Positions 1,877 to 62,765 of a stretch of 64,000 bases of DNA are shown here, one piece after another. The notes beneath the pieces are model-generated. The model worked only from the letters and a program-made list of their open reading frames with translations, ran no database searches and was not told the origin of the DNA. A program made the position numbers and the translations under genes. Source of the stretch: Limnomonas spitsbergensis (taxonomy: Eukaryota; Chlorophyta; Chlorophyceae; Chlamydomonadales); NCBI GenBank assembly GCA_037349105.1, contig JAYJMM010000039.1, forward strand, positions 3,957,001-4,021,000, written 5' to 3'. Position 1 is the first letter of the stretch. Every line of letters starts with the position of its first letter.

Positions 1877-4800
1877 ATGATTGTCGCCCCAAAACCCAGT
1901 CCTGCCAATGCAAGGCCGCCTCTGCACGCATTCATACGAACCACGCCAAATCGGCAGAGCAGTGTAGCCGCCAAGGTGGCCATCAATACTTCAGCTGCAC
2001 TTCAGCTACAACCTGACCTACAACCGGCAGGGCTGGGTGCAACAAGGTGCCTGTTGACTGGGCCACCGGCCCTGGGCAGATCAAGCTTTGGCCCCCATTA
2101 ATCAAATGGTGGTGGCTCTGCGGCCCCCAAATGTGGTTTGGTGCAAACTGAGGTAACCAGTGATGGTGATGCATGCAGGTTTGAGGCGTCCAGACGGGAG
2201 CTGATGCTCGGAGGCGTCTCGTTTGCCGCCATCGTCGCGGCCGGCGTTGCAAGCCCAGCATATGCAGGTGGGTTGCTGGTACAGCCGGCCTGGTACAGCT
2301 GGTCCGGTATAAACAAGTCAATCAGTGGCATACTGCTGGCCCATTGGCCTAGCATGTTGTTCCTGCTGCCCTAGCCTACACAGGTGGTCTAGTGGTGCTT
2401 CAGGTAATGAGATGCCCACCAGGCGCCCCCACCCTGTCGCCCTAACGCCTTCAAAAGCCTGCACAAAGCGGGTTTTGTGCATGTATGCTGGAAAGGGGAA
2501 GGCAGTACAGCCTAGGCTGCATGCAGGACAGCCCAGGCTGCATGCAGTACAGCCTGGGAGTGAGTGGAGTAGTGGACCCATGCTTCCCCATGTTGTTGTC
2601 AGTGCCTCAAGACCTGTGCAATGCTTAAATGGTGCACGGCAAGACTGAAATAATAGTTAAGGCTGTCCAGCGTATGAGGAGCTTCCTTTCCATCACGCAG
2701 CGCTCCGATTTGCTGTTATTCGCCTCACACTGTTTATGTCGGTGTGCGTCTTCTGTCTACAATTCAGATACATCACGCTGCCACAGTCTGCGATTCAGGT
2801 ACATCACAGTTAACAGCCGGGACCCTAGCGAAACATTCCCCGTTGCTTAAGCCACTGGCCGCTGGCCGGTCAAGGTTTGGTTCTCCTTGTCTCAGAGTTG
2901 CTGAACAGTGCCCCCCACATATTGTATGCTGTGCACTGAGACAAGCGCCAATGCCCCCCAGCAGGTTCTGAAGCGTTTGTTTATGAGGACCCTGTGGACA
3001 AGTAAGTGGGGAGCAGGGTAGTGTGTGGGGAGAAGGGTGGGGGACTAGGACAGAATACCTGATGGGCACTTCAGTGGGGAGCAGGTTTTTGAGTGGGGAG
3101 GAGGGCATGAGGCAAGTGCGAAGAAAGTGGTGGACAAGGGAGTGAAGGGCAGGTTCGTGAGTGGGGAGGAAGGCATGAGGCAAGTGCGGAGAAAGTGGTG
3201 GACACGTGAGTGAAGGGCAGGTTCGTGAGTGGGGAGGAGGGCATGAGGCAAGTGCAAAGAAAGTGGTGGACAAGTGAGTGAAGGGCAGGTTCGTGAGTGG
3301 GGAGGAGGGCATGAGGCAAGTGCGGAGAAAGTGGTGGACAAGTGAGTGAAGGGCAGGTTTGTGAGTGGGGAGGAGGGCATGAGGCAAGTGCGGAAAAAGT
3401 GGCGGACAAGTGAGTGAAGGGCAGGTTCGTGAGTGGGGAGGAGGGCATGAGGCAAGTGCGGATAGAGTGGTGGACAAGTGAATGAAGGGCAGGTTCGTGA
3501 GTGGGGAGGAGGGCATGAGGCAAGTGCAAAGAAAGTAGTGGACAAGTGAGTGAAGGGCAGGTTCGTGAGTGGGGAGGAGGGCATGAGGCAAGTGCGGAGA
3601 AAGTGGTGGACAAGTGAGTGAAGGGCAGGTTCGTGAGTGGGGAGGAGGGCATGAGGCAAGTGCGGAGAAAGTGGTGGACAAGTGAATGAAGGGCAGGTTC
3701 GTGAGTGGGGAGGAGGGCATGAGGCAAGTGCGGAGAAAGTAGTGGACAAGTGAGTGAAGGGCAGGTTCGTGAGTGGGGAGGAGGGCATAAGGCAAGTGCG
3801 GAGAAAGTGGTGGACAAGTGAGTGAAGGGCAGGTTCGTGAGTGGGGAAGAGGACATGAGGCAAGTGCGGATAAAGTGGTGGTCAAGTGAATTAAGGGCAG
3901 GTTCTTGAGTGGGGAGGAGGGCATGAGGCAAGTGCGGAGAAAGTGGTGGACAAGTGAGTGAAGGGCAGGTTTGTGAGTGGGGAGGAGGCCATGAGGCAAG
4001 TGCAGAGAAAGTGGTGGACAAGTGAGTGAAGGGCAGGTTCGTGAGTGGGGGAGGGCATGAGGCAAGTGCGGAGAAAGTAGGGGACAAGTGAGTGAAGGGC
4101 AGGTTCGTGAGTGGGGAGGAGGGCATGAGGCAAGTGCGGAGAAAGTGGTGGACAAGTGAGTGAAGGGCAGGTTCGTGAGTGGGGAGGAGGGCATGAGGCA
4201 AGTGCGGAGAATATAGTGGACAAGTGAGTGAAAGGCAGGTTCGTGAGTGGGGAGGAGGGCATGAGGCAAATGCGGAGAAAGTGGTGGACAAGTGAGTGAA
4301 GGGCAGGTTCGTGAGTGGGGAGGAGGGCATGGAACCCAGTGGACAAGTCAGTAGGGAGCAGGGTAGTGAGTCGTGATGAGGTAAGGGGTTAGGGTCGAAG
4401 GTTCCAGTCGACACGCAAGTGAGGAGCAAGGCAGTGTAGCATTGTATTCAGCTATCATCTAGGTGCTTTGTTAGCATGCTTTTATTCCAGAGATCTGTTT
4501 TCCATTTCTGGCTCAGCTATGATTCCTCCTCAAGCAAAAGCCAGTTTGCTGTCGGCTAAGCAGTCTCTTCTGTGGCAAAGTTTTGACCCGCCGGCAAATG
4601 CAGGCCTAGACAGCATGTTTGTGTTCCACGGATCCATTCACAGGTTATTTGTACGGAAATTATTCCTCCTTGAGCGAGTGGCCTCTTCGCCGCCTGAAAA
4701 AGCCCAAAAGGGGCCAAATCCTGATTTGCCAAAGGACGCAGGTTCAGGCAGCATGCCTAGCCGCGGATGGGGCCTCTGGCATGAGGCCAAGAGGTAGCTG

Positions 4801-7800
4801 AAATGTTTCCTGGCTACGACAAACGAAACTCTGATTCTAGTCCATTTATTCTGTGTCTGTGGCCTTACTGACGCTTCCTGCTGGTTGGAGTTGCGCAAAG
4901 ACGCTTTTGCCGGGTTGTAGCTGAAGTGTAGCAGAAGGACCCTGAAGTAAACTTTGTCCATGACTTGCAGGTTGATGCTGATGATTCCTGCCAGCTGACT
5001 TCTGCTTGACGGTGCTTTCCACGATTGTAGCTGAAGTGTAGCTGACACACCCTGAAGTAAACTGTGCTTATGGCTTGCAGGTTCAAGCTGACGGTTCCTG
5101 CTGGGTGGGTGTCGGGTGAAGGCGCGATCCCCGGGGCAATCGCCGGACCGTCAGGTGGGAATCATGAAGGGTCACATGGGGTTGGTGGGGGAAAGTGGGG
5201 GGGAGGGTTGGGGTATAGTGGGGGTCAATGCGCTATTCTCAGGGCACTTGCCCTCCCATCAATTGGTGTTCTGATTTGGCCCGAATGGTGTCAAGTGGGG
5301 GTCAATGGGGGCCACAAGGCTCCGTTCCCGGAACAAATGCTTGACCCTATGGGGGTCAGGGGGGGGGTGACGGCGCTTTCCTGGAGCAATGACCCTATGG
5401 GGGTCAGGGGGGGGGTGACGGCGCTTTCCTGGAGCAATGACCCTATGGGGGTCAGGGGGGGGTGACGGCGCTTTCCTGGAGCAATGACCCTATGGGGGTC
5501 AGGGGGGGGTGACGGCGCTTTCCTGGAGCAATGACCCTATGGGGGTCAGGGGGGGGGTGACGGCGCTTTCCTGGAGCAATGACCCTATGGGGGTCAGGGG
5601 GGGGTGACGGCGCTTTCCTGGAGCAATGACCCTATGGGGGTCAGGGGGGGGGTGAAGGCGCTTTCCTGGAGCAATGACCCTATGGGGGTCAGGGGGGGGT
5701 GACGGCGCTTTCCTGGAGCAATGACCCTATGGGGGTCAGGGGGGGGGTGAAGGCGCTTTCCTGGAGCAATGACCCTATGGGGGTCAGGGGGGGGGTGAAG
5801 GCGCTTTCCTGGAGCAATGACCCTATGGGGGTCAGGGGGGGGGTGAAGGCGCTTTCCTGGAGCAATGACCCTATGGGGGTCAGGGGGGGGTGAAGGCGCT
5901 TTCCTGGAGCAATGACCCTATGGGGGTCAGGGGGGGGTGAAGGCGCTTTCCTGGAGCAATGACCCTATGGGGGTCAGGGGGGGGTGACGGCGCTTTCCTG
6001 GAGCAATGACCCTATGGGGGTCAGGGGGGGGGTGAAGGCGCTTTCCTGGAGCAATGACCCTATGGGGGTCAGGGGGGGGGTGAAGGCGCTTTCCTGGAGC
6101 AATGACCCTATGGGGGTCAGGGGGGGGTGAAGGCGCTTTCCTGGAGCAATGACCCTATGGGGGTCAGGGGGGGGTGACGGCGCTTTCCTGGAGCAATGAC
6201 CCTATGGGGGTCAGGGGGGGGTGACGGCGCTTTCCTGGAGCAATGACCCTATGGGGGTCAGGGGGGGGGTGACGGCGCTTTCCTGGAGCAATGACCCTAT
6301 GGGGGTCAGGGGGGGGTGACGGCGCTTTCCTGGAGCAATGACCCTATGGGGGTCAGGGGGGGGGTGAAGGCGCTTTCCTGGAGCAATGACCCTATGGGGG
6401 TCAGGGGGGGGTGACGGCGCTTTCCTGGAGCAATGACCCTATGGGGGTCAGGGGGGGGGTGAAGGCGCTTTCCTGGAGCAATGACCCTATGGGGGTCAGG
6501 GGGGGGGTGAAGGCGCTTTCCTGGAGCAATGACCCTATGGGGGTCAGGGGGGGGGTGAAGGCGCTTTCCTGGAGCAATGACCCTATGGGGGTCAGGGGGG
6601 GGTGAAGGCGCTTTCCTGGAGCAATGACCCTATGGGGGTCAGGGGGGGGTGAAGGCGCTTTCCTGGAGCAATGACCCTATGGGGGTCAGGGGGGGGTGAC
6701 GGCGCTTTCCTGGAGCAATGACCCTATGGGGGTCAGGGGGGGGGTGAAGGCGCTTTCCTGGAGCAATGACCCTATGGGGGTCAGGGGGGGGGTGAAGGCG
6801 CTTTCCTGGAGCAATGACCCTATGGGGGTCAGGGGGGGGTGAAGGCGCTTTCCTGGAGCAATGACCCTATGGGGGTCAGGGGGGGGTGACGGCGCTTTCC
6901 TGGAGCAATGACCCTATGGGGGTCAGGGGGGGGTGACGGCGCTTTCCTGGAGCAATGACCCTATGGGGGTCAGGGGGGGGGTGAAGGCGCTTTCCTGGAG
7001 CAATGACCCTATGGGGGTCAGGGGGGGGGTGACGGCGCTTTCCTGGAGCAATGACCCTATGGGGGTCAGGGGGGGGGTGAAGGCGCTTTCCTGGAGCAAT
7101 GACCATACCGTCAGGTGGGGGCAGAGTGAGGTGACGGTGGGGTTCAGGTGAGGGTCAAGTCGATCAAGGCACTGCTTCGATGATATGGAGAAGGTGAGGG
7201 TGGCGTGAAGGTAAGGGTGCGGTACTGCGGTGGTGTAACAGTGGAGGTGAAGATGGGAATGAAGTTAAGGGTTGCAAACTAGGGTCGATACCCCTACCAT
7301 CATATGCCCCATGTGTGGCTGCTGTTGCTGATCACATGAAATGCTCCCCTCCCATGGCACATCCAGCTGTCCATCGCACCGTTGCCCTCCACTTTCATTT
7401 AGCTGAATTGCAGCTCAAGCACCTACACACCTTCAGGTGTCCCACTGATCTATCAGGTGCATGCATTACCATCGCCTCCTTCCCAGACAACCTGATGGTG
7501 AATACTTGTTTGCCACTTTTGCTGCTGTTGCTGTCGTTCCTGATGCTGATGCTGCTGATCCTGCTTCTGCTGATCTTGCTGTTGCTGATCCTGATGTTGC
7601 TGATCCTGATGCTACTGATCCTGCTGATCCTGCTGGCTGCTGATCCTGCTGCTGCTTATCCCACTGCTGCTGACCCTGCTGCTGTTGATCCTGCTGCTGC
7701 TGATCCTGCTGCTGCTGACCCTACTGTTGCCAATCCTGCTGTTGCTGATCCTGCTGTTGCTGATCCTGCTGCTGCTGATCCTGCTACTGCTGACCCTGCT

Positions 7801-9051
7801 GTTGCTGATCCTGCTGCTGCTGATCCTGCTGCTGCTGATCCTGCTGTTGCTGTTGATCCTACTGTTGCTGATCCTGCTGTTGCTGATCCTGCTGCTGCTG
7901 ATCCTGCTGCTGCTGATCCTGCTGCCGCTGACCTTTCTGTTGCTGATCCTGCTGCTGCTGCTGCTGCTGCTGCTGATCCTGCTGCTGCTGATCCTGCTGT
8001 TGCTGTTGATCCTACTGTTGCTGATCCTGCTGTTGCTGATCCTGTCGCTGCTGATCCTGCTGCTGCTGATCCCGCTGCTGTTGATCCTGATGCTGCTGAT
8101 CCTGCTGTTGCTGATCCCGCTGTTCCTGCTGCTGCTGCTGCTGATCCTGCTGATCCTGCTGCTGCTGATCGTGATCCTGCTGATCCTGCTACTGCTGATC
8201 CTGATCCTGCTGCTGCTGCTGCTGCTGATCCTGCTGCTGCTGATCCTGATCCTGTTGCTGTTGCTGCTGCTGCTGCTGCTACTGCTCCTGATACTGTTGT
8301 TGCTGATACTGCTGCTGTTGCTGATCTTGATGCTGCAGCTGATCCTGCTACTGCTGATCCTGATTCTGCTCATCCTGCTGCTGTTGATCCTGCTGCTGCC
8401 GATCTTGCTGCTGCTAATCCTGCTGCTGCTGATCGTGCTGCTGCTGATCCTGCTGCTGCTGTTACCCTGCTGCAGTTCCTGATCCTGCTGCTGCTGCTGC
8501 TGATCCTACTGCTGCTAATCCTGCTGCTGCTGATCCTGCTGCTGCTGATCCTGCTGTTGCTGATCTTGCTGCTGCTGATCCTGCTGCTGCTGATCCTGTT
8601 GCTGCTGATCCTGATGCTGCTGATCTTGATGCTGCAGAAACTGATGTTGCTGATGCTGCTGGTGCTGATGCTGCTGGTTCTGATCCTGCTGATCCTGCTG
8701 CTGCTGATGTTGCTGCTGCAGATACTGATGCTGCTGATCCTGCTGATGCTCATCCTGCTGCTGCTTATCCTGCTGCTGCTTATCCTGCTGCTGCTGATCA
8801 TGCTACTATTGATCCGGTTGCTGTTGATCTTGATGCTGCAGATACTGATGATGTTGACCCTGCTGTTGCTGATCCTGCTTTACTGATCCTGCTGTTGCTG
8901 ATCCTGGTGCTGCTGATCTTGATGCTGCACAAACTGCTGCTGCTGATCCTGCTGCTGCTGATCCTGCTGTTGCTGATCTTGATGCTGCAGATACTGATGC
9001 TGCTGATCCTGCTGCTGCTGATCCTGCTGCTGCTGCTGCTGATGATGATGA

Positions 9052-9101
<50 letters not shown>

Positions 9102-12100
9102 ATCCTGCTGCTGTTGATCCTGATACTGCTGATACTGCTGCTGCTGATCATGCTACTGCTGATCCTGTTGCTGCTGATCTTGCTGTTGCTGAAACTGCTG
9201 CTGCTGATCCTGCTGTTGCTCATCCTGATCCTGCTGCTGCTGATCCTGCTGCTGTTGATCTGGCTGCTGCTGATCCTCATGCTGCTGATCCTGATGCTGC
9301 TGATCCTGGTGCTGTTGATCCTGCTGCTGCTGATCCTGCTGTTGCTGATCCTGCTGTTGCTGATCTTGCTGCTGCTTATCTTGATGCTGCAGATACTGAT
9401 GATGCTGATCCTGATGCTGCTGATCCTGCTGCTGCGGATCCTGCTGCTGCTGATCCTGGTGCTGTTGATCTTAATGCTGCTGACCCTGCTGCTGCTGATA
9501 TTGCTGCTGCTGATCCTGCTGCTGCTGCTGATCCTGGTGCTGTTGATCCTGATGCTGCTGATCTTGATGCTGCTAATCCTGATGCTGCTGATCCTGCTGC
9601 TGCTGGTCTTGATGCTGCTGATCCTGTTGCTGCTGATCTTGCTGCTGCTGATCCTGATCCTGCTGATCCTGATCCTGCTGCTGCTGCTGATCCTGATGCT
9701 GCTGATCCTGATGCTTCTGATCCTGATGCTGCTGATCCTGATCCTGTTGATCCTGATGCTGCTGATCCTGCTGCTGCTGATCCTGCTGTTGTTGATCCTG
9801 ATGCTGCTGATCATGATCCTGATGCTTCTTCTGCTGATGATATGATGACCCTCCATCCAGGTGCCCGTCGCACCATCGCCTTCTTTCCGGACGACCCGGC
9901 AGTGAATGATGTGAGCGTTACGGTACTGGTCACCAATGTCAGCCAAGAGTTCACCAAGCTTAGCTCCTTTGGCAACATCGACTCCTTCGCAGGTGCGCTA
10001 GGGGTGAAAGTAGAGCATGTTATGGGGTGAGGGTTCACGATTTACCTGAACCAAGAGTTCACCAAGCCGAGTTGCTTCAGCAAGATCGACTTACTCGCAG
10101 GTGTGCCGGGGATGACAGAACACAATGTTTACGGTTTAGGGGTTAGCAGCTGACCTGAACTGTGAGTTCATCAAGCTGAGTTCCTTCAGCGTCATGAATC
10201 CATTCTCAGGTTAGTGCTCCATGGGTGAAGCAGGGAATGTTTAGGGAGGCAATGCTCGAGTTATCTGAAGAATGGAGGGTGCTTTGACCTGTACTCCTTC
10301 AGCAAAACCAACTTGTTGGCAGTGAGGCCTGTGAGAGGGTTAATGTGAAAGGTCCAGGGTGGGTTAGGGGTCAGTGTTCCAGCATGCAAGATTTGGGGGT
10401 TATGTACTACTTAAGAAAACGAAGCCCTAAAACATGCAGGCATTCGAAATTCTATATCATTTATGTATCATGCAGATTCAGCAGCAAGTAAGTACTTGCA
10501 TGGTCTTAACATTTCTACAAACTCAAAATTTGTAAATAAGCCATAATGTTTTCTGCTGGAACACCGTCTGCCACCCGATCTCCGCCTCGCATGTGGTCAG
10601 AAAGAATGAATGAAAATGCCAATGTGTGTCTTACTGTCTTGTGGAATCAGCAGTTGAATTGCCTTACACCTGTTGTGCATGTCCTTCCACCCTTGTCTTG
10701 TCTCCCGCCCATTTACACTTATTTATGCCCTTTCTTACGGTAGATTTGATTTGCCTTCCTTCGGGTTTGAACACAAGTTTTCTTTCGTTGCTGCCCTTAA
10801 TGCAAACTTTCGACCAAAACTCCTAATTTCTGACTGAAAACTGGCGTTGACAATATGAGAACTAGTCTATTCATGCATCCCGCAGCCCCTAACAACGTTG
10901 ATTTGTGGGAAGGTAGTGCAACTCTGCAGTATGTGTTACTCTTCAATATGTGTTGGTTCTCTCTGATTCCATGTTCCATGCCCCTGACCCAGGCAACCTG
11001 GTCGCAAGCCAGGACCAATCGATGATGTTGAATCAGAAGTATGGCAAGAGGCCTGACGTCATACAGGCAGGTTGCTTGGGAAAAAAAGGGCGGGCTGCTC
11101 GGCACAGGTTGCCTGGGAAGAAAAGGGCTCTGGTGACGAAGAGCTTGAGGGGGCAGCAAAGGTTAGCTCTGGCACATAGTATGAGTCGATGCTGTTGTGC
11201 CAGGCCTTGTTGGCCGAGAAGCTGAACGCCATACCGGCAGGTTGAAGGTTTGTGGTCATAAGACCCCTGAGCTCAGGACTTTGATCCCCAGACTCTGAAC
11301 CCTTGTGGCTAGAGAGGTTGGACGCCATACCTGCATGTTGGTATGTAAACAGGTTTCGAGGCAGAAAGGGTGTGAGGATTGGCCTGGTACGCAAAGTGAC
11401 AGATGCGCAAAGGAGCTGGATTGAAGCTGGGGCACCCTAAACCGTAAAACCCTAAACCCAGAGGAGCTGGATTGAAGCTGGGGCACCCTTGCGCCTCTCA
11501 ATGCATTATCCGCAGTTGTCCAGCCTGGCACACGAAGTACTGGTATTAAGTTGTAACGAAAGCTCCCTGAAGTTAATGCGTCTCGCTGCATCGCCCGCAG
11601 CTCGTGTCTCTGGTCAACAGCAAGGACACAGGCGAGAAGTATAATGTGGAGTACACCATCGAAAAAAGGCCCGGACCGTTCCGCCACCTGATCTCATCAG
11701 TCATTTTGGGATCAAACGGAAGGTGGGTACTGCCTGAAATGTTGGGCAGGTACTGCTTCACATGGTGGACTGGTCCTGCCTCAAATGGAAGGTTGGCTCT
11801 CCCACCTAGACCGTACTGCCTCAAAAGGGACCGTACCGCCCAATTTCGAAGGTGGGCTCCCCTGGCAGGACCGACTCGGCACGGTGGGCTTGAGGCAGTA
11901 CCCACCCTCAATTTGACCCCATCGATTATCCTGGGATCAATTGGAGGTTGGGTACCGCTCAAGCCGACCATGCCGCCTTAAATGGTAGGTTAAGGGCTAA
12001 CCCATTAGGTGCGTGTGGACTGCCTCAATGTCCTGATATGGTGGCTGCCGCCTAAAATGGAGGGTGGGACATTGGGATCGCCTCATATGGATGGTGTGTA

Positions 12101-21870: not shown

Positions 21871-21956
21871 TAAATAATAAAGGTATGTTGGAGAAACAGC
21901 ATGGGACACACAACATTACTTCACTTCCAGGACGGTGCCTCCATCATGATTTTCCG

Positions 21957-37900: not shown

Positions 37901-37943
37901 TTTGGCAGTTTTGGTCCCCCGGAAGAGGTGCTTGTGTCGCTAG
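31964..37943 (+). CDS. FAD-dependent monooxygenase, kynurenine 3-monooxygenase-like
   Basis: Exons 31964-32541, 33270-33421, 33633-34126, 34929-35141, 36309-36746 and 37683-37943. All phases agree; 2136 nt, 711 residues plus stop. Motifs are those of flavoprotein aromatic hydroxylases: GGGPAG at residues 13-18 with an acidic residue after the second strand (VEVHEK), the DG motif ADGANSEVR at about 200-208, and GDAAHAVSPSLGQG at about 457-470. The sequence is closest in pattern to kynurenine 3-monooxygenase (NADPH-dependent hydroxylation in tryptophan breakdown). It ends with a hydrophobic helix (about 683-703) and a basic Cys-containing tail, which fits a membrane-anchored enzyme. Two Ala/Pro/Ser-rich insertions (about 265-380 and 505-590) are unusual and make it longer than typical family members. 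Decayed copies surround exons 2, 3, 4 and 6. Substrate is inferred. Confidence 0.85.
33010..33190 (+). pseudogene. Two decayed copies of monooxygenase exon 33270-33421
   Basis: GGTGGCTACTGACGACGCC followed by AGCAGTCAGGTCCG at about 33014-33046, and TGGCGGCTGCTGACGGCG followed by TTAACAGAGAGATCCGCC at 33133-33178, both match the real exon's GGTGGCTGCTGACGGCGCC followed by AACAGTGAGGTCCGCC. A CCCTAACAGCTACGACC-like acceptor also recurs. Only the third copy is in phase. Confidence 0.8.
33490..33545 (+). pseudogene. Decayed copy of start of monooxygenase exon 33633-34126
   Basis: TTTACAGGGAAGTATGGCCC, GGGAGGTTCTGTGTTGCATT, TCTACAG is nearly identical to the acceptor and first 40 bases of the exon at 33633. 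CCATGC-rich sequence is repeated between the two. Confidence 0.85.
34500..34615 (+). repeat. Dispersed repeat, copy 2 of 3
   Basis: Contains AACTCTTAATTTCTGACTGC, AAACTGGCATCAAAGATCG, CCTCCCTCACCGCCAGACAA and TTATGAGGGAAGGCAAAT, in the same order as at 58370-58470 and partly as at 10815-10915. It lies in intron 3 of the monooxygenase gene. Confidence 0.6.
35142..35945 (+). pseudogene. Five decayed tandem copies of monooxygenase exon 34929-35141 (3' half)
   Basis: The GATGCGGCGCACGC, GGTCAGCCCGTCGCTGGG, CAGGGCTGCAATGCGGCGCT block, which encodes the flavin-binding GDAAHAVSPSLGQG segment, recurs at about 35220-35290, 35377-35445, 35577-35645, 35746-35815 and 35890-35945. Each of the first four is followed by a copy of the donor and GGGAGCGGGAGTAGTGGG-type intron sequence. 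Units are roughly 150-190 bases. None extends the reading frame from exon to exon. Confidence 0.9.
37055..37115 (+). mobile_element. LINE 3' end fragment
   Basis: CCTACGCGGCCGAGCATTCAGCAGGGCCCAG followed by CGGGTACCG resembles the end module of the LINE at 17260-17310. It lies in the last intron of the monooxygenase gene. Confidence 0.5.
37520..37640 (-). repeat. Dispersed CAGCTACA/GGCCACCGGCC element, inverted copy
   Basis: On the minus strand it reads TTCAGCTACAAATTCAGCTA, CATCATGGCTTGCAGCC, GGTGCAGCAAGCCCGG, then CCACTGGCCGGTAGCCGG, the usual order. It ends about 40 bases before the last exon of the monooxygenase. Confidence 0.65.
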
Positions 37944-39790: not shown

Positions 39791-39895
39791 ACTGTAAATG
39801 AACCGTAACAAAATTAGTGTAATTACGCCGTTATTGACATCTGGCCTGTAATTTACACCGTAAAAGAAAACTGTAATTACACCGCAACAGTAAAT

Positions 39896-48480: not shown

Positions 48481-49275
48481 ATGATGCTTGAAGATGAAAG
48501 CATCGACAACGGCAGTCAGGACGAGAGCACGCTGCTGTCGCTGCCGCGCTCCGTCATCGGCAATATCATCGAACGGCTCGGCGACGTGGCAGAACAGCTG
48601 ATCGTCGCGACCGTCAGCCCGCTGCTACGCTTAGTCGTCAATGAGGTGACTGCAGCAATTCAAAACGCCACTGCATAGATGTGCTACGATACGTCGGACG
48701 TTGAGGCGCAGCGGTAACGTCGGGATATTCGAAGGGTGTATGTGGGAGGGGTGTCAGTTCAAGAGTCAAAAAGGCAGTGGCAAGGGCTCACCCGCACTGC
48801 TTTTAAGATTTTCCCTGCACGCCAGCAGTGATGCAGCAGTCCACCCTGCATGCCACTATGAAGGAATGGAACAGCACATGTGATGAGCCTGCATGGAGGA
48901 CCCCGCATGCATGCAGCAACCCTCAATCGTTGTGGACTTGTGGTCCAAACAGCTCTGCAGCATACCACCCTGCAAAGGACAGGATCAGCGTAGAGACCCT
49001 GCGTGCATGGAGTAGCGCATGCAAGGAGGACCCTGCATGCATGGCTCATGGAGTAGCACAGCATCATCGCGACATGCATGCAGCACACAGATAGAGGAAG
49101 GTCTATGCGACCTCAAATGACCAGGCCTTTTTGAAAAAACTGAACACGACATGCACAATTGTGCACAGCTGACCCCATCCTTTAGACAGTGCAACCTTCT
49201 GGCACCACATCAAGTCATCAACAGTACATATATATATCACACATGCACCCACCCACACCCGCCCACATGCACACG

Positions 49276-49312
<37 letters not shown>

Positions 49313-52300: not shown

Positions 52301-55300
52301 TGAAGCTGAATAGCAGCTGTATGAAGCTGGGTGGCAGCTGCAGGAGGTGATCTAAGACGGAGTGTCCAAGATCGCTTTGGGATGCAAGAAGCTCAAGGTG
52401 CGTCCGCGCAGTTGGGTGTAGCTGCATGAAGCTGGGTGGCAGCTGCATGAAGCTGAATAGCAGCTTTATGAAGCTGGGAGGCAGCTGCATGAAGCTGAAT
52501 AGCAGCTGTATGAAGCTGGGTGGCAGCTGCAGGAGATGACCGACGACGGAGTGTCCAACTTCGCTTTGGGATGCAAGAAGCTCAAGGTGTGTCCGCGCAG
52601 TTGGGTGTAGCTGCATGAAGCTGGGTGACAGCTGCAGGAAGGTGATGGACGACGGAATGTCAAAGATCGCTTTGGGATGCAAGAAGCTCAAGGTGCGTCC
52701 GCGCAGTTGGGTGTAGCTGCATGAAGCTGGGTGGCAGCTGCAGGAAGGTGATGGACGACGGAGTGTCAAAGATCGCTTTGGGATGCAAGAAGCTCATGGT
52801 GCGTCCGCGCAGTTGGGTGTAGCTGCATGAAGCTGGGTGGCAGCTGCATGAAGCTGAGCGGCAACTGCTGGAAGGTGACCGACAACGGAGTGTCCAAGAT
52901 CGCTTTGGGATGCAAGAAGCTCAAGGTGCGTCCGCGCAGTTGGGTGTAGCTGCATGACGCTGGGTGGCAGCTGCATGCAGCTAAGCAGTAGCTGCATGAA
53001 GCTGGGTGGCAGCTGCAGGAAGGTGACAGGCGACAGTGTGTTGAAGATCGCTTTGGGCTGCATGAATCTGAAGGTGTATCCACGCAGTTGGGTGGCAGCT
53101 GCATGAAGCTGGGTGGCAGCTGCAGGAAGGTGACTGGCGACAGTGTGTTCAAGATCGCGTTGGGCTGCATGAACCCTAAGGTGCATCCACGCAGATGGGT
53201 GGTGGCTGCATGAAGCTGGGTGGCATCAATTATAACCCTTGAACCCTAAACATACCTTCTGAACCCCGCAGGGCATCGTGCTAGACGGGTGTGTGCAGTG
53301 CACCTCGCAGTCTATTGCCATGCTGGCAACCTCCTGTCCGGATCTGGAGGCAGTGTCCGTTGCAAAGTGAGAAAGCCAGGGATGGTTAAGGCCATCCGTA
53401 CCCATCCATAGTTCCATACCCATCCATACCCATCCATACTATCCGTACCCATCCATACCCATCCATACCCATCCTCTCCCGGCCACCTTCTGCCGGGATC
53501 TGGATGCAGATTCCGTTGCCAAGTGAAGGGACCAGTTCAATTTCATGCCACACATGCCACATCCCCACATGTCCCGTCCTCTACTGACCGCCTTCATTCT
53601 TAATCTGGACGCGGTGTCTGTAGCCACATGTGTGGGACGGGGTTGTTTTATACCAACTGTACCGGCGTACCCTGTTGGCCACCTTGTGTTCAGATCTGGA
53701 TACGGTGTCTATTGAGAAATGAGCATGCTAGACTTTTTGAGGGAGGGAACTGGACCACGTGTGGGCTCCTGTAAGGCATCAACCACTGTTGACACACCCT
53801 CCAATGGGCGCTGACAGCCGCCCCTGGGTTGACAAAAACACACCATCATGGCCCCTTATCACCAGGTGCTTCCGCATGGGGAACGCAGCTGTGGCCGCGC
53901 TGGGCCCGCATCCCAACTGGGGCTCGCTGCAGCATCCGAATCAGCATCCGAATCAGCAACGGCAGCATCCCACTGCCTCCGCGCTGCTGCTGCCTCCTAG
54001 GATTCCGTTGCGATCTGTTTGCCTCACGATCTGCCATCGTGTCTCGGTTCTGGAGCCGCTGGCGGACCTGACCACGTTGGAGAGCATGGACCTGACAGGC
54101 TGTGTGCAGGTGGGCGTGGAGGGGGGGGCCTTTCAGCTACAAATCGGCTTGAGATTTAGCTACATTTGGGGTACCTGTCAGCTACCTATCAGCTACAATT
54201 TGGCTTAAGTCTGGCTATATAAGCCTTGCCTACGGTTGTAGGGGACCTGGTGCAGCAAACCCTGATGCTTGGGTGGTCTGGTGCACGCATCTATGTACAC
54301 TGGGGGGAAGAGGGGAGTTGGGGGGGGGGGGGGGGGGGGGGAGGAGGGGAGTGTAAAAAGGGGGGAAGAGGGGGGACGGGAGTGGGAAGAGAGGAGAAGG
54401 GGGGGAGGAGGGGAGGACGGGAATGGGAAAGAGGGGGAGTAGGGTAGTGGGGAAAGTGGGGGGAAAGGGGAGGACGTGAAGGGGCACTACATCCCTGACC
54501 CTCTCTGCCCCTCCCTTGCTCCCCAGCTTTCGGATGCCCAGCTGTTGAGAGCTGTCACTGGATCTGCCCGGGGCATACACACCCTGCGGCTTAACAACTG
54601 CATGCAGCTCTCAGGACAGGTGCGCGGTATCCCACCCCTACCTGTACTGCACGCTGCGTACTGCATGACACGGTGGCCATGGCACAGGCATGCCCACCCC
54701 TACCCACTGTACTGCACACTGCGTACTGCATGACACGGTGGCCATGGCGCAGGCATGCCCATCCCTACCCACTGTACTGCACGCTGCGTACTGCATGACA
54801 CGGTGGCCATGGCGCAGGCATGCCCACCCCTACCCACTGTACTGCAAGCTGCGTACTGCATGACACGGGTGCCATGGCGCAGGCATGCCCACCCCTACCC
54901 ACTGTACTGCACGCTGCGTACTGCATGACACGGTGGCCATGGCGCAGGCATGACCACCCCTACCCACTGCACTGCACGCTGCGTACTGTATGACATGGTG
55001 GCCATGGCGCAGGCATGCCCACCCCTACCCACTGTACTGCACGCTGCGTACTGCATGACACGGTGGCCATGGCGCAGGCATGCCCACCCCTACCCACTGT
55101 ACTGCACGCTGCGTACTGCACGTCATTGTGGCCATGACACAAGCATGCCCATCCCTACCCACTATACTGCACGCTGCGTACTGCACATCATTGTGGCAAT
55201 GGTGCAGGCATGCCCACCCCTACCCACTGCACTGCACGCTGCGTACTGCATGACACGGTGGCCATGGCGCAGGCATGACCACCCCTACCCACTGCACTGC

Positions 55301-57599
55301 ACGCTGCGTACTGCATGACACGGTGGCCATGGCGCAGGCATGCCCACCCCTACCCACTGTACTGCACGCTGCGTACTGCATGACACGGTGGCCATGGCGC
55401 AGGCATGCCCACCCCTACCCACTGTACTGCACGCTGCGTACTGCACGTTGTTGTGGCCATGACACAGGCATGCCCATCCCTACCCACTGTACTGCACGCT
55501 GCGTACTGCACGTCATTGTGGCCATGGCACAGACATGCCCACCCCTAACCCCTGTACTGCACGCTGCGTACTGCACGTCATTGTGGCCATAGCACAGACA
55601 TGCCCACCCCTACCCACTGTACTGCACGTCATTGTGGCCATGGCACAGGCATGCCCACCCCTACCCACTGTACTGCACGTCATTTTGGCCATGGCACAGG
55701 CATGCCCACCTCTACCCCCTGTACTGCACGTCATTGTGGCCATGACACAGGCATGCCCACTCCTACCCACTGTACTGCACACTGCTTTATCAGCGTCATT
55801 GTGGCCATTGCACAGGCATGCCCACCCCTACCCCCTGTATTGTACGCTGTGTACTGCACGTAATTGTTGCGAGGGCACTGGCATGCCCACCCCTACCTCC
55901 TGTACTGCACGCTGCGTAATGCACTCATTGTGGCCATGGCACAGGCATGCCCACCCCTACCTCCTGTACTGCACGCTGCGTACTGCACGTCATTGTGGCC
56001 ATAGCACAGACATGCCCACCCCTACCCACTGTACTGCACGTCATTGTGGCCATGGCACAGGCATGCCCACCCCTACCCACTGTACTGCACGTCATTTTGG
56101 CCATGGCACAGGCATGCCCACCTCTACCCCCTGTACTGCACGTCATTGTGGCCATGACACAGGCATGCCCACTCCTACCCACTGTACTGCACACTGCTTT
56201 ATCAGCGTCATTGTGGCCATTGCACAGGCATGCCCACCCCTACCCCCTGTATTGTACGCTGTGTACTGCACGTAATTGTTGCGAGGGCACTGGCATGCCC
56301 ACCCCTACCTCCTGTACTGCACGCTGCGTAATGCACTCATTGTGGCCATGGCACAGGCATGCCCACCCCTACCTCCTGTACTGCACATTGCGTACTGCAG
56401 GGCATTGTTGCCGTGGCGCAGGCATGCCAGCGTCTGGAGGTGTTGTGTGTGCGTGGGGTGAGCGTGGCTGACACGCACCTGCGGGCACTGTCCTGCCACA
56501 CGAGCTGCTTGGTGGAGCTGGACCTCAGCCAGGTGACAGATCAGGAGGGGGGTCAGGGTCAAGTGTCAAGTTTAGTCTGATCTTTGAACACTTCACCCTA
56601 AAAAAGGGATACAAAACCCAGGGATACATTAGGAGTGTATCAGGGTTCAGGATAAATAATTCAGCTGTTTAGAGCTGAATCACAGCTGTTGTTCCCAACC
56701 CTACAATCTAAATATTGTGATTCGATGAGGCATGAACTGTTAGGGGTCCAGGTTGCAGTTTGCATCCATACCCACTCCATGCTGTGCCGCTTCGTGCTGC
56801 AGTGTCACGCTTTGACCGACCTTGGCTTGTTGCCCATGCTGGCATCCAACCCAAGGCTGGAGAGGTTGGAGGTACGTCTTGGGTGTTGCCAGATCGCGGC
56901 TGTGGGTATGAAATCGGAGGCGGCTGTAATGCAGTTGATTGCTGGTATGAAATCAAAGGCTAGAGGCATGAGGAGGCCTCAGGAATGGACCCGCCATCAC
57001 CATGACCACCATCACCATCAGGTGCCTCTGCTGCGTAGTTGGAGGGCCTTTACCGCATGAGTGACCACGTGGTGTCCCTGCTGCCACGCTTCACTCCACG
57101 ACTGGCCGCTCTCAATATCCGCATGTGTAACTGCATCAGCGCGGAGGCGTTGCTGGCCATTGTGGCGGGGGGCGCTGAGGAGGATGTGGAGCAGCAGGCG
57201 TGGGACGAGCGGGCCTGGGACGAGCGGACGTGGGAGGAAGGGGAGCGGGATGGACCTGCAGGCTGCAACGTTGGTACCCACCGAGGTTCACCAGTTGCAG
57301 GTGTAAAGGGGGTAGACGTGGAATCAAGCAGAGGCTGTGTCGACCGGGGCTGTGACAGTGGTGGCGGCAGCTTGTATTTGAAGGATGTGTTGCAGGCCCC
57401 ATGCTCCCTGTCTGCCGTGCCTGGGGTCATCACAAGCGATCAACCCAGTGGGAAGTCCACAGCTGTGCACAAAGCGAGGCGGCGTTGTTGCTTGAGGCTG
57501 CGCACCATACAACTGGGTGGTGTCCTGGGGGATACGGACACCACACGACTGGTCAGGGAGATGAAGGCTGTGGTCCCTGATATCCTGCTTAGGGCATGA
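48481..57599 (+). CDS. F-box-like / leucine-rich-repeat protein (AMN1 type), 10 exons
   Basis: Exons 48481-48645, 49913-50154, 51407-51467, 52122-52250, 53272-53366, 53866-54109, 54527-54619, 56401-56532, 56803-56871 and 57039-57599. All phases agree; 1791 nt, 596 residues plus stop. Residues about 17-53 (LLSLPRSVIGNIIERLGDVA...) match an F-box pattern (LP..V...I...L), with moderate certainty. The rest is cysteine-containing LRRs of the SKP2/AMN1 type: LESLDLLGSS, LHLNCSHCRKVTDGGVSKIA, LESMDLTGCVQ, LRLNNCMQLSG, LVELDLSQ, LAALNIRMCNCIS. Such proteins usually choose substrates for SCF ubiquitin ligases. The last exon adds a long variable tail after the final LRR. The acceptor of the last exon could be six bases further on (TTGGAG is duplicated across the junction). 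Almost every intron carries copies of the flanking exon ends. Confidence 0.85.
49146..49425 (+). repeat. Inverted duplication, copy 1 (partner at 63745-64000)
   Basis: From CACGACATGCACAATTGTGC through a CA-rich stretch (ACACAC run at about 49276-49310) to TTGTGTGCTCAGCCATGCT. The reverse complement recurs at the right edge of the window with very few differences; the CA run differs in length. It lies in intron 1 of the F-box/LRR gene. Confidence 0.9.
49430..49912 (+). repeat. Decayed copies of the start of exon 49913 with CACCCA-rich spacers
   Basis: The exon begins GAGTGCCTCCCACGCCTGGA, GTCCCTTGACCTGTTAGGCA. At 49425-49465 a copy reads GACTACCTACCCTGTCTTGA, GTCCCTTGACCTTTCATG. Shorter ones, GAATGTCTACC (49560), GGAATGCCTGGC (49686) and GGAATGCCTCCCACAC (49794), precede the exon, each with CACACCCACCCA spacers. 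Confidence 0.75.
50285..50380 (+). pseudogene. Decayed copy of the end of exon 49913-50154
   Basis: GGGGTCACAGTACACGCTGT, ATATGCAGATATTGACGACA, CTCAACGGGGACGGGTGAG matches the exon end CTTACTGCACACGCTCCAGA, TCCAGACCTGGAAGAAACTC, AACGGTGACACGTGAGA. TGTAGCTGAAGTG words follow in tandem. Confidence 0.7.
50542..50905 (+). repeat. 107-bp tandem repeat, 3.4 copies
   Basis: Unit starts GGAAGCAGCTGGGATGTGCA and ends TACCGTACCGGTTATAAAACAT. Copies start at 50542, 50649, 50756 and 50863 and are almost identical. The last is cut short. It is in intron 2 of the F-box/LRR gene and has no visible relation to an exon. Confidence 0.95.
50975..51400 (+). repeat. CCCTGCCCTA array with two pseudo-copies of exon 51407 start
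   Basis: CACTGTAGGCTGTCGGCCTTG at about 51000 and GCTGCAAGCTGTCGACCCTG, CTGGTCCAA at 51236 copy the acceptor and start of the real exon (GCTGCAGGCTGTCGGCCCTG, CTGGTCCAC). Each is followed by an array of 5-base CCCTG/CCCTA units. Confidence 0.85.
51583..51712 (+). repeat. Dispersed CAGCTACA/GGCCACCGGCC element, copy
   Basis: TTTCAGCTACGTCTCAGCTA, CGTCCAGCAAGCCCTGA, TAAGCTGCCGGCCGGTTTAGG, GGCCCCTATCGGCCCAGTGG, TGGCCGCCCGGCAAGCC. Intron 3 of the F-box/LRR gene. Confidence 0.75.
52251..53225 (+). pseudogene. Seven tandem copies of the end of exon 52122-52250
   Basis: The exon ends GACGGCGGAGTGTCCAAGAT, CGCTTTGGGATGCAAGAAGC, TCAAG with donor GTGCGT. Copies of this 45-base end plus about 60-100 bases of intron (GCGCAGTTGGGTGTAGCTGC, ATGAAGCTGGGTGGCAGCTG) recur at about 52353, 52546, 52652, 52757, 52887, 53034 and 53142. 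The last two have diverged to GGGCTGCATGAA. The antisense ORFs (52769-52053, 53170-52766 and others) are artefacts of this array. Confidence 0.9.
53440..53725 (+). pseudogene. Three decayed copies of the end of exon 53272-53366
   Basis: The exon end (CAACCTCCTGTCCGGATCTG, GAGGCAGTGTCCGTTGCAAA, GTGAG) recurs as GGCCACCTTCTGCCGGGATC, TGGATGCAGATTCCGTTGCC, AAGTGA (about 53480-53525), as AATCTGGACGCGGTGTCTGT (53600) and as CACCTTGTGTTCAGATCTGG, ATACGGTGTCTATTGAGAAA (53680-53720). CCATCCATAC repeats lie before the first copy. Confidence 0.8.
54128..54275 (+). repeat. Dispersed CAGCTACA/GGCCACCGGCC element, copy (diverged), with G run
   Basis: CTTTCAGCTACAAATCGGCT, CAGCTACCTATCAGCTACAA, GCCTACGGTTGTAGGGGACC, TGGTGCAGCAAACCCTGATG. 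A G run of about 20 bases and GGGGAAGAG repeats follow at 54318-54470. Confidence 0.6.
54635..56400 (+). repeat. About 62-bp and 45-bp array (some 30 units) derived from acceptor and start of exon 56401
   Basis: Typical unit: CACGCTGCGTACTGCACGTC, ATTGTGGCCATGGCACAGGC, ATGCCCACCCCTACCCACTGT. The real exon is preceded by CACATTGCGTACTGCAG and begins GGCATTGTTGCCGTGGCGCA, GGCATGCCAGCGTCTGG, so the unit is the acceptor plus the first 30 bases of the exon. Units near the exon (CGTCATTGTGGCC) match it better than the distant TGACACGGTGGCC units. A 412-base higher-order duplication is included (55535-55946 repeated at 55947-56358). Long ORFs over this region are artefacts. Confidence 0.95.
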
Positions 57600-59576: not shown

Positions 59577-62575
59577 ATGTCTGCCGCAAACTTAAGAGCA
59601 GCCGCTCAAAAGGGTGACGCCGTCGCGGTAGAGCAGGCGCTGACGACGGGCGCCGATATCAACGCCGTGGATAAGTCAGGTCGCACCGCGATGCATCTCG
59701 CGGCCGCCGGCAACCACGAGGAGGCCGTTCGAGCGCTGCTCAAAGCCGAAGCAGACGTCGACCTGGAGACGAAGGACGGCGACACAGCACTGTGAGGCCT
59801 GCTATTGCCATGTCAGCCGAAATGATGGATACAGTGGATCCCTTGGATCAATGTATAATTCAAATTTGAGGAGCCCTCTCTGTGCCATTCATGGGGCTGT
59901 TACGCATGGGGCTGCCATGCAACTGGCTGTCCTGCATGGGGCTGTCCTGCATAGGGCTGCCATGCCTGCGGCTGTCGTGCATGGGGCTGTCATGCATGGG
60001 AATGCCAAGCGTGGGTCTATCATGCATCTGGCTGTCATGCATGGTCCTGTCATGCATGTGGCTTCCGTGCATGCAGCTGTCATGCGTGCAGCTGCCATGC
60101 CTGTGGGTTTCATGCATGCAGCTGCCCAGCATGCGACTGTCATGCGTGGGGCTGTCATATACAGGTCTGTTATGTGTGGGGCTATCATACATGGATCCGT
60201 CATGCATGGGGCTGCCATGCATGAGGCTTTGATGTAAGAGGCTGCCTTGCATGTGGCAGTTGAGTATTCCACTGTCATGCATGGGATTGTCATGCATTCG
60301 GTTGCCATACATTCATGCCTGTGCCTGCCTTTGATGCATGTCGGCTGATTGTGCCAAGTTCCACAGCCAGGCTCATAGGCATGACCTTGGATGCAATCAT
60401 GGCGATTGCCTAGCTTGGCCGTTCACCCTCTCACTTGTCCGCCACTGCTTTTTTTTGTGAGAAGTATACCACTATCAGCTACAGTTCAGCTACACTATGG
60501 CCCTCGGCCACAAGCCCCTGCTTCGGCTAGCCCTGCTGCTTGGGCCACCGGCCGGAGGCTGGTCCTAGTTTGGAGGGAATCAGCCCAGCAAAGGTGGTCC
60601 GGTACCCACTAAGAGAAACACAGTTGTCCGCATGTCCATCCAGGGCCCCTCCCTTCTCAGGAGGCGCTGCTCATCAGCTAGATGTGTTCCAATCAAACAT
60701 GTGATGGAAAAACAAACACGGCTGCTAAAGGCGTTCTTCATTTGCAGAGTCTAATGGTTCAGAGCGAGGCCGCCCCGCTTTTCCTGGCAACCCAGCCTTC
60801 CCCTCTATGACCTGTGGCCTTTGCAACCCCTACGTGCCCTTGGCTCTTAAGATAGACCAATATTCACTGACTTAGGGCAAGGGCATTGTAGTGCGAGGAT
60901 ATCCTGCTGTTCCCACGCAATCCAGCATGAGACAAATGGCTTCTGAAGGAGGTCATTGCTTGCATTCTTGTGAACTGTGGTGCGAGGATAACCTGCTGTT
61001 CACGTCCATCCAGCCTGCCCTTTTTTAACCGCCTGTGCCTCCCTTGACTGCCCATCGCTGTTGAAGGATATCATTATTTCAAAGTGCATCGTAGAACAGG
61101 GACAAGGTAGTACAATGCTATTTTAGTACGAGGACATCGTTGTATGAGGGAACTGTACAGTGGTGACATTGACACGGAGATTGTAGTACAAGGATACCTC
61201 GCTGTCTCAAAGCTATGCAGCCCGCCATTCATTTTAAAGAGGAGCCACGCTCTGAACAGGGATGGAACATATTCCACGCTCTGATGATCACTTCATGGTC
61301 ATGGGCTCAGTGGCTCACTGGTGTGCCGTGCTGCCTGTCAGGGGTCCTCACGGTACACAGGATGTAAGTAAACCATTTGATTAAATTTCTAAGTCTGCCC
61401 TGTCTGCCCAGGGTCCTGGCCGCTGCCTTACCAAACCCTAAACCCTTCACCCTAAACATGCTGCTGGTGCCACCCTAAATCCCTAAACCCTTGACCCTAA
61501 GCAGGCTTTTGGTCTATGCCTTTCCAACCCCTTAACCCTAAGCAGGGTCCTGGTCGCTGCCACCCTAACCCTTAAACCCTTGAATCTAACAGGCTCCTGC
61601 TTTTTGCTGTTCTAAACCCTTAACCCTAATCAGGGTCCTGGTCGCTGCCACTCTAACCCTTAAACCCTTGACCCTAAACAGGCTCCTGGTTTCTGCCGTT
61701 CTGAACCCCTAAAAAAGGTTGACCCTAAACAGGAACCTGGTCGCTGCTATCCTAACATCTGAACCCTGCACTGGAACTTGGCTGCTGCCGACCGAAACCC
61801 CTAACCCTGAATTATAAACAGGCACTTGGCCGCTGCTGCGGGACACACGGAGTGCATCCAGCTACTTTTGGAAAAGAGCGACGAGGACGCGGAGAACAGC
61901 GAGACAGGCAACACACCACTGTGGGTAAAAGATGCCCCATGCCCCTAATGCCACATGCTGTGATGTAGCTGAACTGTAGCTGAATTGTAGCTGAATTGTA
62001 GCTGCATGACCCTGGGTACACCCATGTGCGGCCCACCATCTCTGTGGCATCGTATCTGGGGTCCCTTAATCCGTCTTCCTTTACCGTGTCAGTGCACCCA
62101 ACCAGTTGCCGCTTTTCTGAAGGCCAACATGGACATGTCTGTTGTTTGCCACACATGATCCGACATATCACATCGTTTATGTCATTTCTGTCTGCTAAAA
62201 ACTTGTAACCCCATGTGTCCCCGTTTCCATTTCTGTCACATGTCATTCCTGCCCTTTTACGAAATCCCGATTCCCGAATCCCGCCACACCTGATTTGACG
62301 AAATTAAGCAGGAACTTAATGCTCTGCAGTAGGAGGGAATATTTTCTGTCCTAGGGTCTGTCATGAGCTAGCTCCTTTATGCCCCTTGCAGGGGTTTAGG
62401 ATGTTGACCGAGTATTTCCACTCTTGGCCCCCAAATCCTTCAGGTTAGTGCATTGCTATGCCCAAACCTTGCTCCTTCTCTCTGCTCCTCAAATTCAGCT
62501 GGGCTGCTGTATCCGGAGGCCACCCCGAGGCTGCGGCTGCGTTGATAGAGGCTGGCTGCGACGTCAACCTGGCAT
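59577..62575 (+). CDS. Ankyrin-repeat protein, first three exons seen (3' incomplete)
   Basis: Exons 59577-59791, 61822-61920 and 62499-62575, with compatible phases, give 130 residues and four ankyrin repeats: LRAAAQKGDAVAVEQALTTG (first), TAMHLAAAGNHEEAVRALL (second), HLAAAAGHTECIQLLLEK (third, completed across the splice) and WAAVSGGHPEAAAALIEAG (fourth). The TALHLAAxxGHxExxxLLL consensus is clear. Introns fall at the same place in successive repeats (within the DTAL/NTPL turn), so repeat and exon units coincide. The donor after 62575 (GTGAGA) is good, but I found no further exon before the window ends; the rest may lie beyond it. Function unknown beyond protein binding. Confidence 0.8.
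59880..60310 (+). repeat. 15-bp GGGGCTGTCATGCAT minisatellite, about 28 copies
   Basis: Units of 15 bases with the core CATGCATGGGGCTGT and many point variants. Because 15 is a multiple of three, ORFs stay open on both strands; these are artefacts. It is in intron 1 of the ankyrin gene. Confidence 0.95.
60473..60605 (+). repeat. Dispersed CAGCTACA/GGCCACCGGCC element, copy
   Basis: TATCAGCTACAGTTCAGCTA, CGGCCACAAGCCCCTGC, TGCTGCTTGGGCCACCGGCC, GGAGGCTGGTCCTAGTTTGG, then CAGCAAAGGTGGTCCGGT. A closely similar start, TTTTTTTAGTGAGTGGTATACC followed by ACTATCAGCTACAG, is found at 27365-27410, so these two copies share flanking sequence as well. Confidence 0.8.
60880..61215 (+). repeat. Loose tandem GTAGTGCGAGGATATCCTGCTG units, about 4 copies
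   Basis: Units at about 60888, 60976, 61118 and 61170 share GTGCGAGGATA and CCTGCTGTTC or CCTCGCTGTC words, with 50-90 base spacing. No coding meaning is seen. Confidence 0.55.
61395..61821 (+). repeat. Eight or so copies of the acceptor and start of exon 61822
   Basis: The real exon is preceded by CCCTGAATTATAAACAG and begins GCACTTGGCCGCTGCTGC. Upstream, units such as CCCTAAGCAGGGTCCTGGTC, GCTGCCACCC and CCCTAAACAGGCTCCTGGTT, TCTGCCGTTC recur every 40-60 bases. Each has a CAGG(G/C)TCCTGGTCGCTGCC core mixed with AACCCTTAAACCCTTGACC telomere-like words. Confidence 0.85.
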
Positions 62576-62689
62576 GTGAGATATGAGTATATGACGCGAG
62601 GACTCTGAATACCAAACCATAACGCCAAACCGTAACCCAAAACCATAACCCAAAACCTTAACCCAAACCATAACCCAAAAGCATAACCC

Positions 62690-62765
62690 CAAAACCATTT
62701 GCCTCCAAACCATGATCGTTTGACTGATGCCGGCTGCGACGTCGCCCTCGCATGCAAGATCACGC
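62690..62765 (+). pseudogene. Decayed copy of the end of exon 62499-62575
   Basis: TTGACTGATGCCGGCTGCGA, CGTCGCCCTCGCATGCAAGA matches the exon's TTGATAGAGGCTGGCTGCGA, CGTCAACCTGGCAT plus donor GTGAGA. Between them is an array of about six AACCATAACCCAAAA units. Confidence 0.8.

Follow-up and report, generated by a model that had tools for sequence, protein, structure and literature searches.

Copies of exon-intron junctions inside introns of the snow alga Limnomonas spitsbergensis and the probable growth of introns by local tandem duplication

Background

How does an intron become long, and why would it contain repeated copies of the junction at its own edge? Long introns are often attributed to transposons. 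A different source is raised by a window of 64,000 nucleotides (nt) from the genome of Limnomonas spitsbergensis (NCBI GenBank assembly GCA_037349105.1, contig JAYJMM010000039.1, positions 3,957,001 to 4,021,000 of the forward strand; "the window" is this whole stretch, and coordinates are counted from its first letter). Limnomonas spitsbergensis is a snow alga from the Arctic and belongs to the Chlamydomonadales (PMC11228838). An initial annotation of the window described intron arrays whose units contain the end of the neighboring exon with its donor, or the acceptor with the start of the next exon, and proposed that splice junctions are where these arrays originate.

Here we describe the copies, their orientation and spacing, and their relationship to repeats of the intron interior. 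Introns of this alga probably grow via recurrent local tandem duplication that is spread along the intron and that selection on the protein trims at the exon edges. The alternatives are discussed with the evidence that bears on each.

Copies of junctions in their own introns

Six gene models (A to F; five on the forward strand and one on the reverse) provide 38 exons, 32 introns and 64 junctions; the exons were picked with the repeats already in view. Each junction supplied a query of up to 30 exon nt and 10 intron nt, and its alignment in the intron it borders was compared with those in 200 dinucleotide-shuffled versions of that intron. At a cut of no more than 2 in 200 shuffles as good, 31 of the 64 junctions (17 donors and 14 acceptors, counted by eye) have a copy in their own intron where about one junction is expected, and 24 of the 32 introns (also by eye) hold at least one copy. 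A stricter cut of at most 1 in 200 retains 28 junctions and 21 introns. The shuffle test detected no junction copy in introns A0, C2, D0, D1, E2, E5, E8 and F1. The observation is real and far above chance. It bears out, against the shuffled expectation, the description of such units in six unrelated genes and on both strands, and each of the six modeled genes has at least one significant junction. The copies are listed in Table 1.

The copies are in direct orientation. When all 100 shuffles had to be beaten, direct copies were found at 44 of 126 junctions of the window and a set of chaperonin genes (see below), and reverse complements at 2 of 126. In the same two sets each intron end was also compared with one randomly chosen junction from another locus, and none matched (0/126). 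A sequence common to the introns of many genes, as introner elements would give, was not found in these comparisons.

Chance, low complexity or assembly error is an extremely unlikely source of the copies. Some arrays are indeed simple (7540-9841), but the shuffled, inverted and foreign controls do not reproduce the junction copies. The decayed and irregular copies are unlike the product of a collapsed or expanded assembly, and the published assembly is described as long-read and polished (PMC11228838).

Array sizes reach about 37 copies by Tandem Repeats Finder (TRF), in agreement with the earlier estimate of 2 to nearly 40, although the 37-copy array (5342-7104) resembles the exon end weakly. 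Not every array is derived from a junction. In our reading those at 7540-9841, 23629-23953, 25308-25811 and 50542-50899 are without exon sequence, and in the array at 44778-44995 the common part is only intron sequence upstream of an acceptor. Similarity had been said to fall with distance from the copy that is in phase. This is a trend only: among ladders (series) of two to eight copies it falls in 20 of 29 and rises in nine (p = 0.06).

Recurrence in other genes

Ten chaperonin loci were drawn from 72 genome-wide exon matches to Pfam PF00118, with junctions scripted from the exon matches, the frame and the splice signals. In 16 of 50 neighboring pairs of exon matches an exon is missing or no intron intervenes, and 34 were given junctions (by eye); three of these were dropped for a frame deviation above 9 nt or an intron below 120 nt, leaving 31 introns. 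Own copies were found at 19 of 62 junctions (6 donors and 13 acceptors; 17 at the stricter cut) and in 15 of the 31 introns. The acceptor at 7434 of locus L031 has a copy that agrees at 36 of 37 nt, beyond which older copies follow. A heat-shock set with mostly short introns (HSP90 and HSP70 loci L036, L037, L040 and L041, the near-copies L038 and L039 being left out) has copies at 2 of 38 junctions, or 3 of 38 in a stricter recount. The pattern thus recurs elsewhere in the genome, often in the chaperonin genes and seldom in the heat-shock genes.

All three sets together comprise 82 introns, and 39 of them hold at least one junction copy. Copies are present in 36 of 58 introns of at least 300 nt and in 3 of 24 shorter ones (p = 6e-5), short introns having less room. 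Coding segments called ab initio in 200 kb gave copies for 12 of 100 edges, 3 of 100 interiors and 23 of 100 flank interiors. This result is supportive with limited precision: at a slightly lower cut the caller recovered 24 of the 38 window exons with 13 non-exon calls, and the sample, 20 stretches around matches of one repeat plus the flanks of the window, is not random.

Junction and intron interior compared

If splice junctions were the origin of the arrays, they should be copied more often than the rest of the intron. A profile was made of the share of 30-mers that recur in the same intron, sampled at several fixed distances from the junction. In window introns of at least 150 nt the share is 0/35 in the exon interior, 3/43 at 75 nt into the exon, 9/56 at 45 nt, 20/62 at 15 nt, 26/62 at the junction and 32/77 in the intron interior. 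The chaperonin genes show the same fading into the exon, with 1/61, 4/62 and 12/62 at 75, 45 and 15 nt, 15/62 at the junction and 70/165 in the interior. Averaged per intron over 49 introns of at least 400 nt in the three gene sets, the ratio of junction to interior is 1.09 (95% interval 0.83-1.48). Insertion of other elements into intron interiors would dilute the repeats there and thereby push this ratio up.

Intron growth through uniform tandem duplication with protected exons was simulated in four settings for each preference, the absolute levels being dependent on the setting. The simulated ratio is 0.57-0.90 without preference for the junction, 0.74-1.37 with a twofold and 1.30-1.42 with a threefold preference; the window gives 0.99 (interval 0.67-1.50) by the script's own measure. 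Uniform duplication with frozen exons produces a profile shaped similarly to the observed one. Strong junction targeting is therefore not needed; a mild preference, about twofold, is allowed and fits slightly better.

The initial annotation favored a junction-directed process, which might involve breaks or re-copying at the splice sites in connection with splicing or transcription. Junction copies are highly significant, a twofold preference fits the simulated ratio, and tandem repeats in the introns of Chlamydomonas and Volvox are described as nearer the intron ends (PMC3887541). The interior is nevertheless copied about as often as the junction, and a threefold preference overshoots in simulation, though the observed interval extends that far at its upper end. 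We consider such a process unlikely, and the anatomy of the copies weighs on the same question.

Anatomy of the duplications

The nearest copy lies 89-170 nt away in 18 of 27 cases in the window (by eye), a narrow spacing that would suit a junction-directed process. Against this, the nearest copies include between 8 and 88 nt of exon (median 38; 23 cases with spacing of at most 300 nt), and this length is scattered, which argues that the duplication ends are not anchored on a splice motif. Breakpoints anchored at the junction are disfavored for this reason. The original proposal, that arrays consistently start at splice junctions through a mechanism of their own, is therefore not upheld: the interior is repeated as often and the units are unanchored.

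Unit sizes have modes mostly at 20-60 and 100-140 nt. The share of 80-159-nt units does not differ significantly between introns and intergenic DNA (52/153 and 5/20, p = 0.61), and their density per kb is higher in introns. In 10 of the 23 nearest copies the aligned exon and intron parts span the full spacing (by eye), as tandem duplication requires. Exact two-copy duplications were examined for microhomology, and many of them sit within larger arrays. Introns might instead be rewritten from their edges by a type of duplication that is linked to introns, or to transcription and splicing, and has a typical unit of about 100-140 nt, length growing by serial junction copying and ladders recording the order of events; this version is rather unlikely.

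Donor copies at 15 junctions match the G at a rate of 0.81 and the T at 0.88, and acceptor copies at 13 junctions match the A at 0.93 and the G at 0.75, compared with 0.76-0.80 at flanking positions in both cases (local alignments favor matches). The GT and AG rates are near those of their neighbors, and the copies therefore look neither maintained nor purged.

The copies could also be decayed whole exons left by exon duplication in repeat-domain genes. Leucine-rich-repeat (LRR) and ankyrin exons are repeat-sized, and the ladder at 27210-28200 includes about 75 nt of exon. However, the same pattern is found in PsbP, monooxygenase-like and chaperonin genes, and the short exon parts of the nearest copies also disagree with whole exons, although no search dedicated to these was made. 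This explanation is disfavored and highly improbable.

Paralogous introns and intron growth

The chaperonin paralogues L031 and L033 share the 4/4 intron positions that were compared, with lengths of 255/641, 778/588, 329/227 and 445/756 nt, and the ladders of the 329/227 pair differ. The HSP90 loci L036 and L037 share 3/3 compared positions, and blastn between them gives four matches, all at exons (86-93%). Intron positions are thus kept between paralogues although lengths and ladders are not, which favors the lengthening of existing introns over their birth. Three tandem HSP90 copies (L037, L038 and L039; G000:C32:466000-498700) are about 97% alike, and one of their introns is 232-240 nt shorter in one copy, the unit of its array being 233 nt. 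Another HSP90 intron has about 1.16 kb extra in L039. HSP70 genes, too, appear to form paralogue pairs whose exon structures match (C119/C36, C21/C124 and C4/C123), which are useful for the dating of intron changes.

The arrays might alternatively be remnants of intron birth, in which pieces of exon carrying AGGT were duplicated in tandem. Many sites are AG/GT (a slash marks the splice site) and the mechanism is known (PMC3443670). This reading is disfavored and very unlikely: the paralogues keep their positions yet differ in intron length, and the units hold intron as well as exon sequence.

Repeat density and the weighing of the explanation

In the window, local repeats make up 54% of the intron sequence, 11% of intergenic bases and 6% of two long intergenic stretches; "intergenic" here includes gene flanks and probably unmodeled exons. 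The share is 31% for exon sequence no more than 40 nt from an exon end. At the chaperonin loci it is 40% for introns and 9% for the exon matches. Array density per kb is 2.89 for introns of the window and 2.15 for those of the chaperonin genes, compared with 1.03 in intergenic DNA of the window and 1.42 in 20 mixed stretches, and 38 genic and 19 intergenic chunks of 1 kb differ in repeats at p = 6e-7, the chunks not being independent. Both comparisons would suit a transcription-linked instability, with more duplication in transcribed noncoding DNA overall. Set against it is the LINE-like (long interspersed nuclear element-like) sequence of the intergenic DNA, where young insertions may have had too little time to form arrays. 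Young transposon sequence may account for part of the gap between introns and intergenic DNA, transcription-linked duplication being the alternative. Such instability is a tentative possibility, and it could underlie growth by local duplication rather than replace it.

Under the explanation we prefer, local tandem duplication would recur anywhere along the intron, in units mostly of 20-60 and 100-140 nt. A duplicated segment that crosses a splice junction would bring some exon sequence with it, about 90 nt at most. Such an event would be tolerated because the protein stays intact provided that the outer, exon-proximal splice site remains in use. Duplications wholly within coding exons would alter the protein and be lost. 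With each further event the older copies would come to lie farther from the exon, decaying as neutral sequence and forming ladders. Slippage, end-joining or Okazaki-fragment errors are candidate processes.

Several results weigh against growth by evenly spread duplication with a simple filter at the exon. The observed ratio of junction to interior is above the no-preference range and within the twofold range, although its interval overlaps both, and among ten earlier simulations those run with no preference gave interiors that were relatively more repetitive than the real ones. Exon sequence takes up less of the unit than a uniform distribution would give (Kolmogorov-Smirnov p = 0.006, 23 copies), a deficit that decay may or may not explain. 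Exon bases at least 40 nt from a junction are in local repeats at 15.8%, above the expectation of a strict filter. The heat-shock genes have copies at 2/38 junctions while their intron interiors reach 24/46. The contrast of 54% and 11% in repeat cover is not explained by uniform duplication alone.

Gene models and other features of the window

The models rest on an open frame and splice signals in all six genes and, in gene A only, additionally on homology (PsbP). Splice sites are GT-AG throughout with the exception of two apparent GC donors, at 11066 (ATACAG/GCAGG) and at 22262 on the reverse strand (CTGCAG/GCAAGG); the other modeled donors of both genes are GT. Joined at the outer splice sites, the exons keep one open frame in 5/6 genes (checked for the first 7 exons in gene B), and in gene D (42592) the frame is broken between exons 2 and 3. 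The top protein match of gene A is a PsbP of Chlamydomonas eustigma (60% identity). One 5' exon is probably absent from the model of gene A, and upstream or intermediate exons may be absent from that of gene B.

Table 1. Modeled genes and junction copies in the window. In every row of copies, arrays or ladders no shuffle matched as well (0/200). A slash in sequence marks the splice site.
Feature	Position	Strand	Evidence or remarks
Gene A, PsbP-domain protein (PPD type), 7 modeled exons	2179..13605	+	open spliced frame; Pfam PF01789
Gene A exons	2179-2267, 2965-3001, 5081-5154, 9861-9992, 10993-11066, 11601-11722, 13488-13605	+	
Array, ~68-nt units with GTGGACAA/GTGAGTG, end (last nine or so nt) of exon 2965-3001 + donor	3058..4356	+	TRF; 21 copies
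Two copies of start of exon 5081-5154, nearer one including acceptor	4868..4991	+	
Array, 47/48-nt units, weak match to end of exon 5081-5154	5223..7119	+	TRF; last copy retains ACCGTCAG/GTGGG
Two decayed copies, acceptor + start of exon 9861-9992	7360..7495	+	
Ladder, end of exon 9861-9992 + donor (CAAGAGTTCACCAAG..TCGCAG/GT)	10061..10240	+	spacing ~110 nt
Copies, end of exon 10993-11066 + GC donor	11105..11345	+	
Copies, end of exon 11601-11722 + donor (AATGGAAG/GTGGG type)	11914..12227	+	
Gene B, leucine-rich-repeat protein, 8 modeled exons	21948..30114	-	first 7 exons: open spliced frame, LRR pattern; family read from translation
Gene B exons	30114-30046, 29367-29257, 27155-27015, 25981-25837, 24756-24695, 23400-23263, 22397-22262, last from 22157 down	-	last end approximate
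Two copies, acceptor + start of exon 29367-29257	29480..29690	-	
Ladder over ~1 kb, acceptor + start of exon 27155-27015	27210..28200	-	six decaying copies
Three copies, end of exon 27155-27015 + donor	26700..26930	-	
Three copies, acceptor + start of exon 25981-25837	26036..26470	-	
Copies, end of exon 25981-25837 + donor	24890..25304	-	
One copy, acceptor + start of exon 23400-23263	23526..23566	-	
Two copies, end of exon 23400-23263 + donor	23030..23154	-	
Copies, acceptor + start of exon 22397-22262	22480..22753	-	
Gene C, flavin adenine dinucleotide (FAD)-dependent monooxygenase-like protein, 6 exons	31964..37943	+	open spliced frame; family read from translation
Gene C exons	31964-32541, 33270-33421, 33633-34126, 34929-35141, 36309-36746, 37683-37943	+	
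Two copies, acceptor region + start of exon 33270-33421	32998..33170	+	
Close copy, acceptor + start of exon 33633-34126	33484..33536	+	z 23
Tandem copies, end of exon 34929-35141 + donor	35195..35960	+	TRF; unit 146 nt at first
Short copy, end of exon 36309-36746 + donor	36776..36791	+	
Gene D, unrecognized protein, 4 modeled exons	42592..46753	+	frame break, exons 2/3
Gene D, donor copies starting 45874 and 46017	junction 45788	+	
Gene E, F-box/LRR-like protein, 10 modeled exons	48481..57599	+	open spliced frame; family read from translation
Copies, acceptor + start of exon 49913-50154	49422, 49765	+	
Copy, end of exon 49913-50154 + donor	50328	+	
Copies, acceptor + start of exon 51407-51467	50995, 51221	+	stretch 49422..51264
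Array, end of exon 52122-52250 + donor (AAGCTCAAG/GTGCG)	52282..53220	+	TRF; 7 good copies + 3 weak matches
Three copies, end of exon 53272-53366 + donor	53485..53730	+	
Array, 65/51-nt units, acceptor + first ~28 nt of exon 56401-56532	54631..56400	+	TRF; ~28 copies
Gene F, ankyrin-type protein, 3 modeled exons	59577..62575	+	open spliced frame; family read from translation
Acceptor copies of exon 61822-61920	61450-61790	+	

The window contains other repeats. A 36-nt repeat, a length divisible by three, is present in 3.1 copies at 36493-36604, inside an exon of the monooxygenase-like gene. A dispersed element, whose starts resemble TTCAGCTACAATTCAGCTACA and whose core is GCTTGGGCCACCGGCCGTGGGCCGGTC, lies at about 2845, 12621, 21804, 22869, 60538 and 63065 and at other places (by eye). 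The core has 6 window matches with at most 3 mismatches, compared with 0 by chance, and a 351-nt probe of the element found at least 41 places in the genome, itself included. Scans of a viral collection with two stretches of this element gave no match. Remains of LINE-like reverse transcriptases with TTGTTGTTGTT tails were seen by eye at 15600-16950 (+) and 39900-40400 (-), as was an inverted partial copy of the last PsbP exon and its 3' flank (13560-13800, +) at about 40500-40770 (-). Rfam and tRNA scans of the window gave no matches.

Relationship to known systems

Gao and Lynch reportedly described in 2009 internal gene duplications that cross a splice boundary. The alga falls within internal tandem duplication across a splice site, with direct, nearby copies that carry exon and intron sequence. 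In the potato RdRp gene one tandem duplication crosses an intron-exon boundary and yields a new intron (PMC4974935). The initial annotation knew of no named system that does this; the single type of event has a precedent. As its report presents it, the potato case is a single event with a new intron, whereas the alga has repeated events in about half of the introns (39/82) and ladders of junction copies that look unused.

The intron birth systems based on AGGT duplication (PMC3443670, PMC4974935), so far as these reports describe them, are alike in the local tandem duplication around AG/GT and differ in that existing introns lengthen in the alga, where no birth is shown. In Chlamydomonas reinhardtii and Volvox carteri repeat density is described as highest in introns and biased to intron-exon junctions (PMC3887541). 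The alga resembles these species in the intron bias, and the passages of that survey concerned with it are silent on exon ends within the units. The green algae in the survey are those two species. Minisatellites share the tandem units and the differences in copy number, the latter seen in one HSP90 intron only. The algal units, however, often straddle a functional boundary, and many of the families are worn ladders of few copies. Among the matches listed from the literature searched, which covers few subscription journals, no report was found of introns that arise as their own junctions are copied again and again, only of single boundary-crossing duplications and repeat surveys. The single type of event is already known, and what is new here is the scale, the iteration and the decaying ladders.

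A large share of the intron sequence in this alga appears to consist of local tandem copies, some of them recognizable since selection fixes the source at the exon edge. A fixed source of this kind would give intron growth a built-in clock and a direction. The introns would also offer a natural test of splice-site choice, as the spliceosome must select the true site among near-identical copies, such as the chaperonin acceptor copy with 36/37 identical nt.

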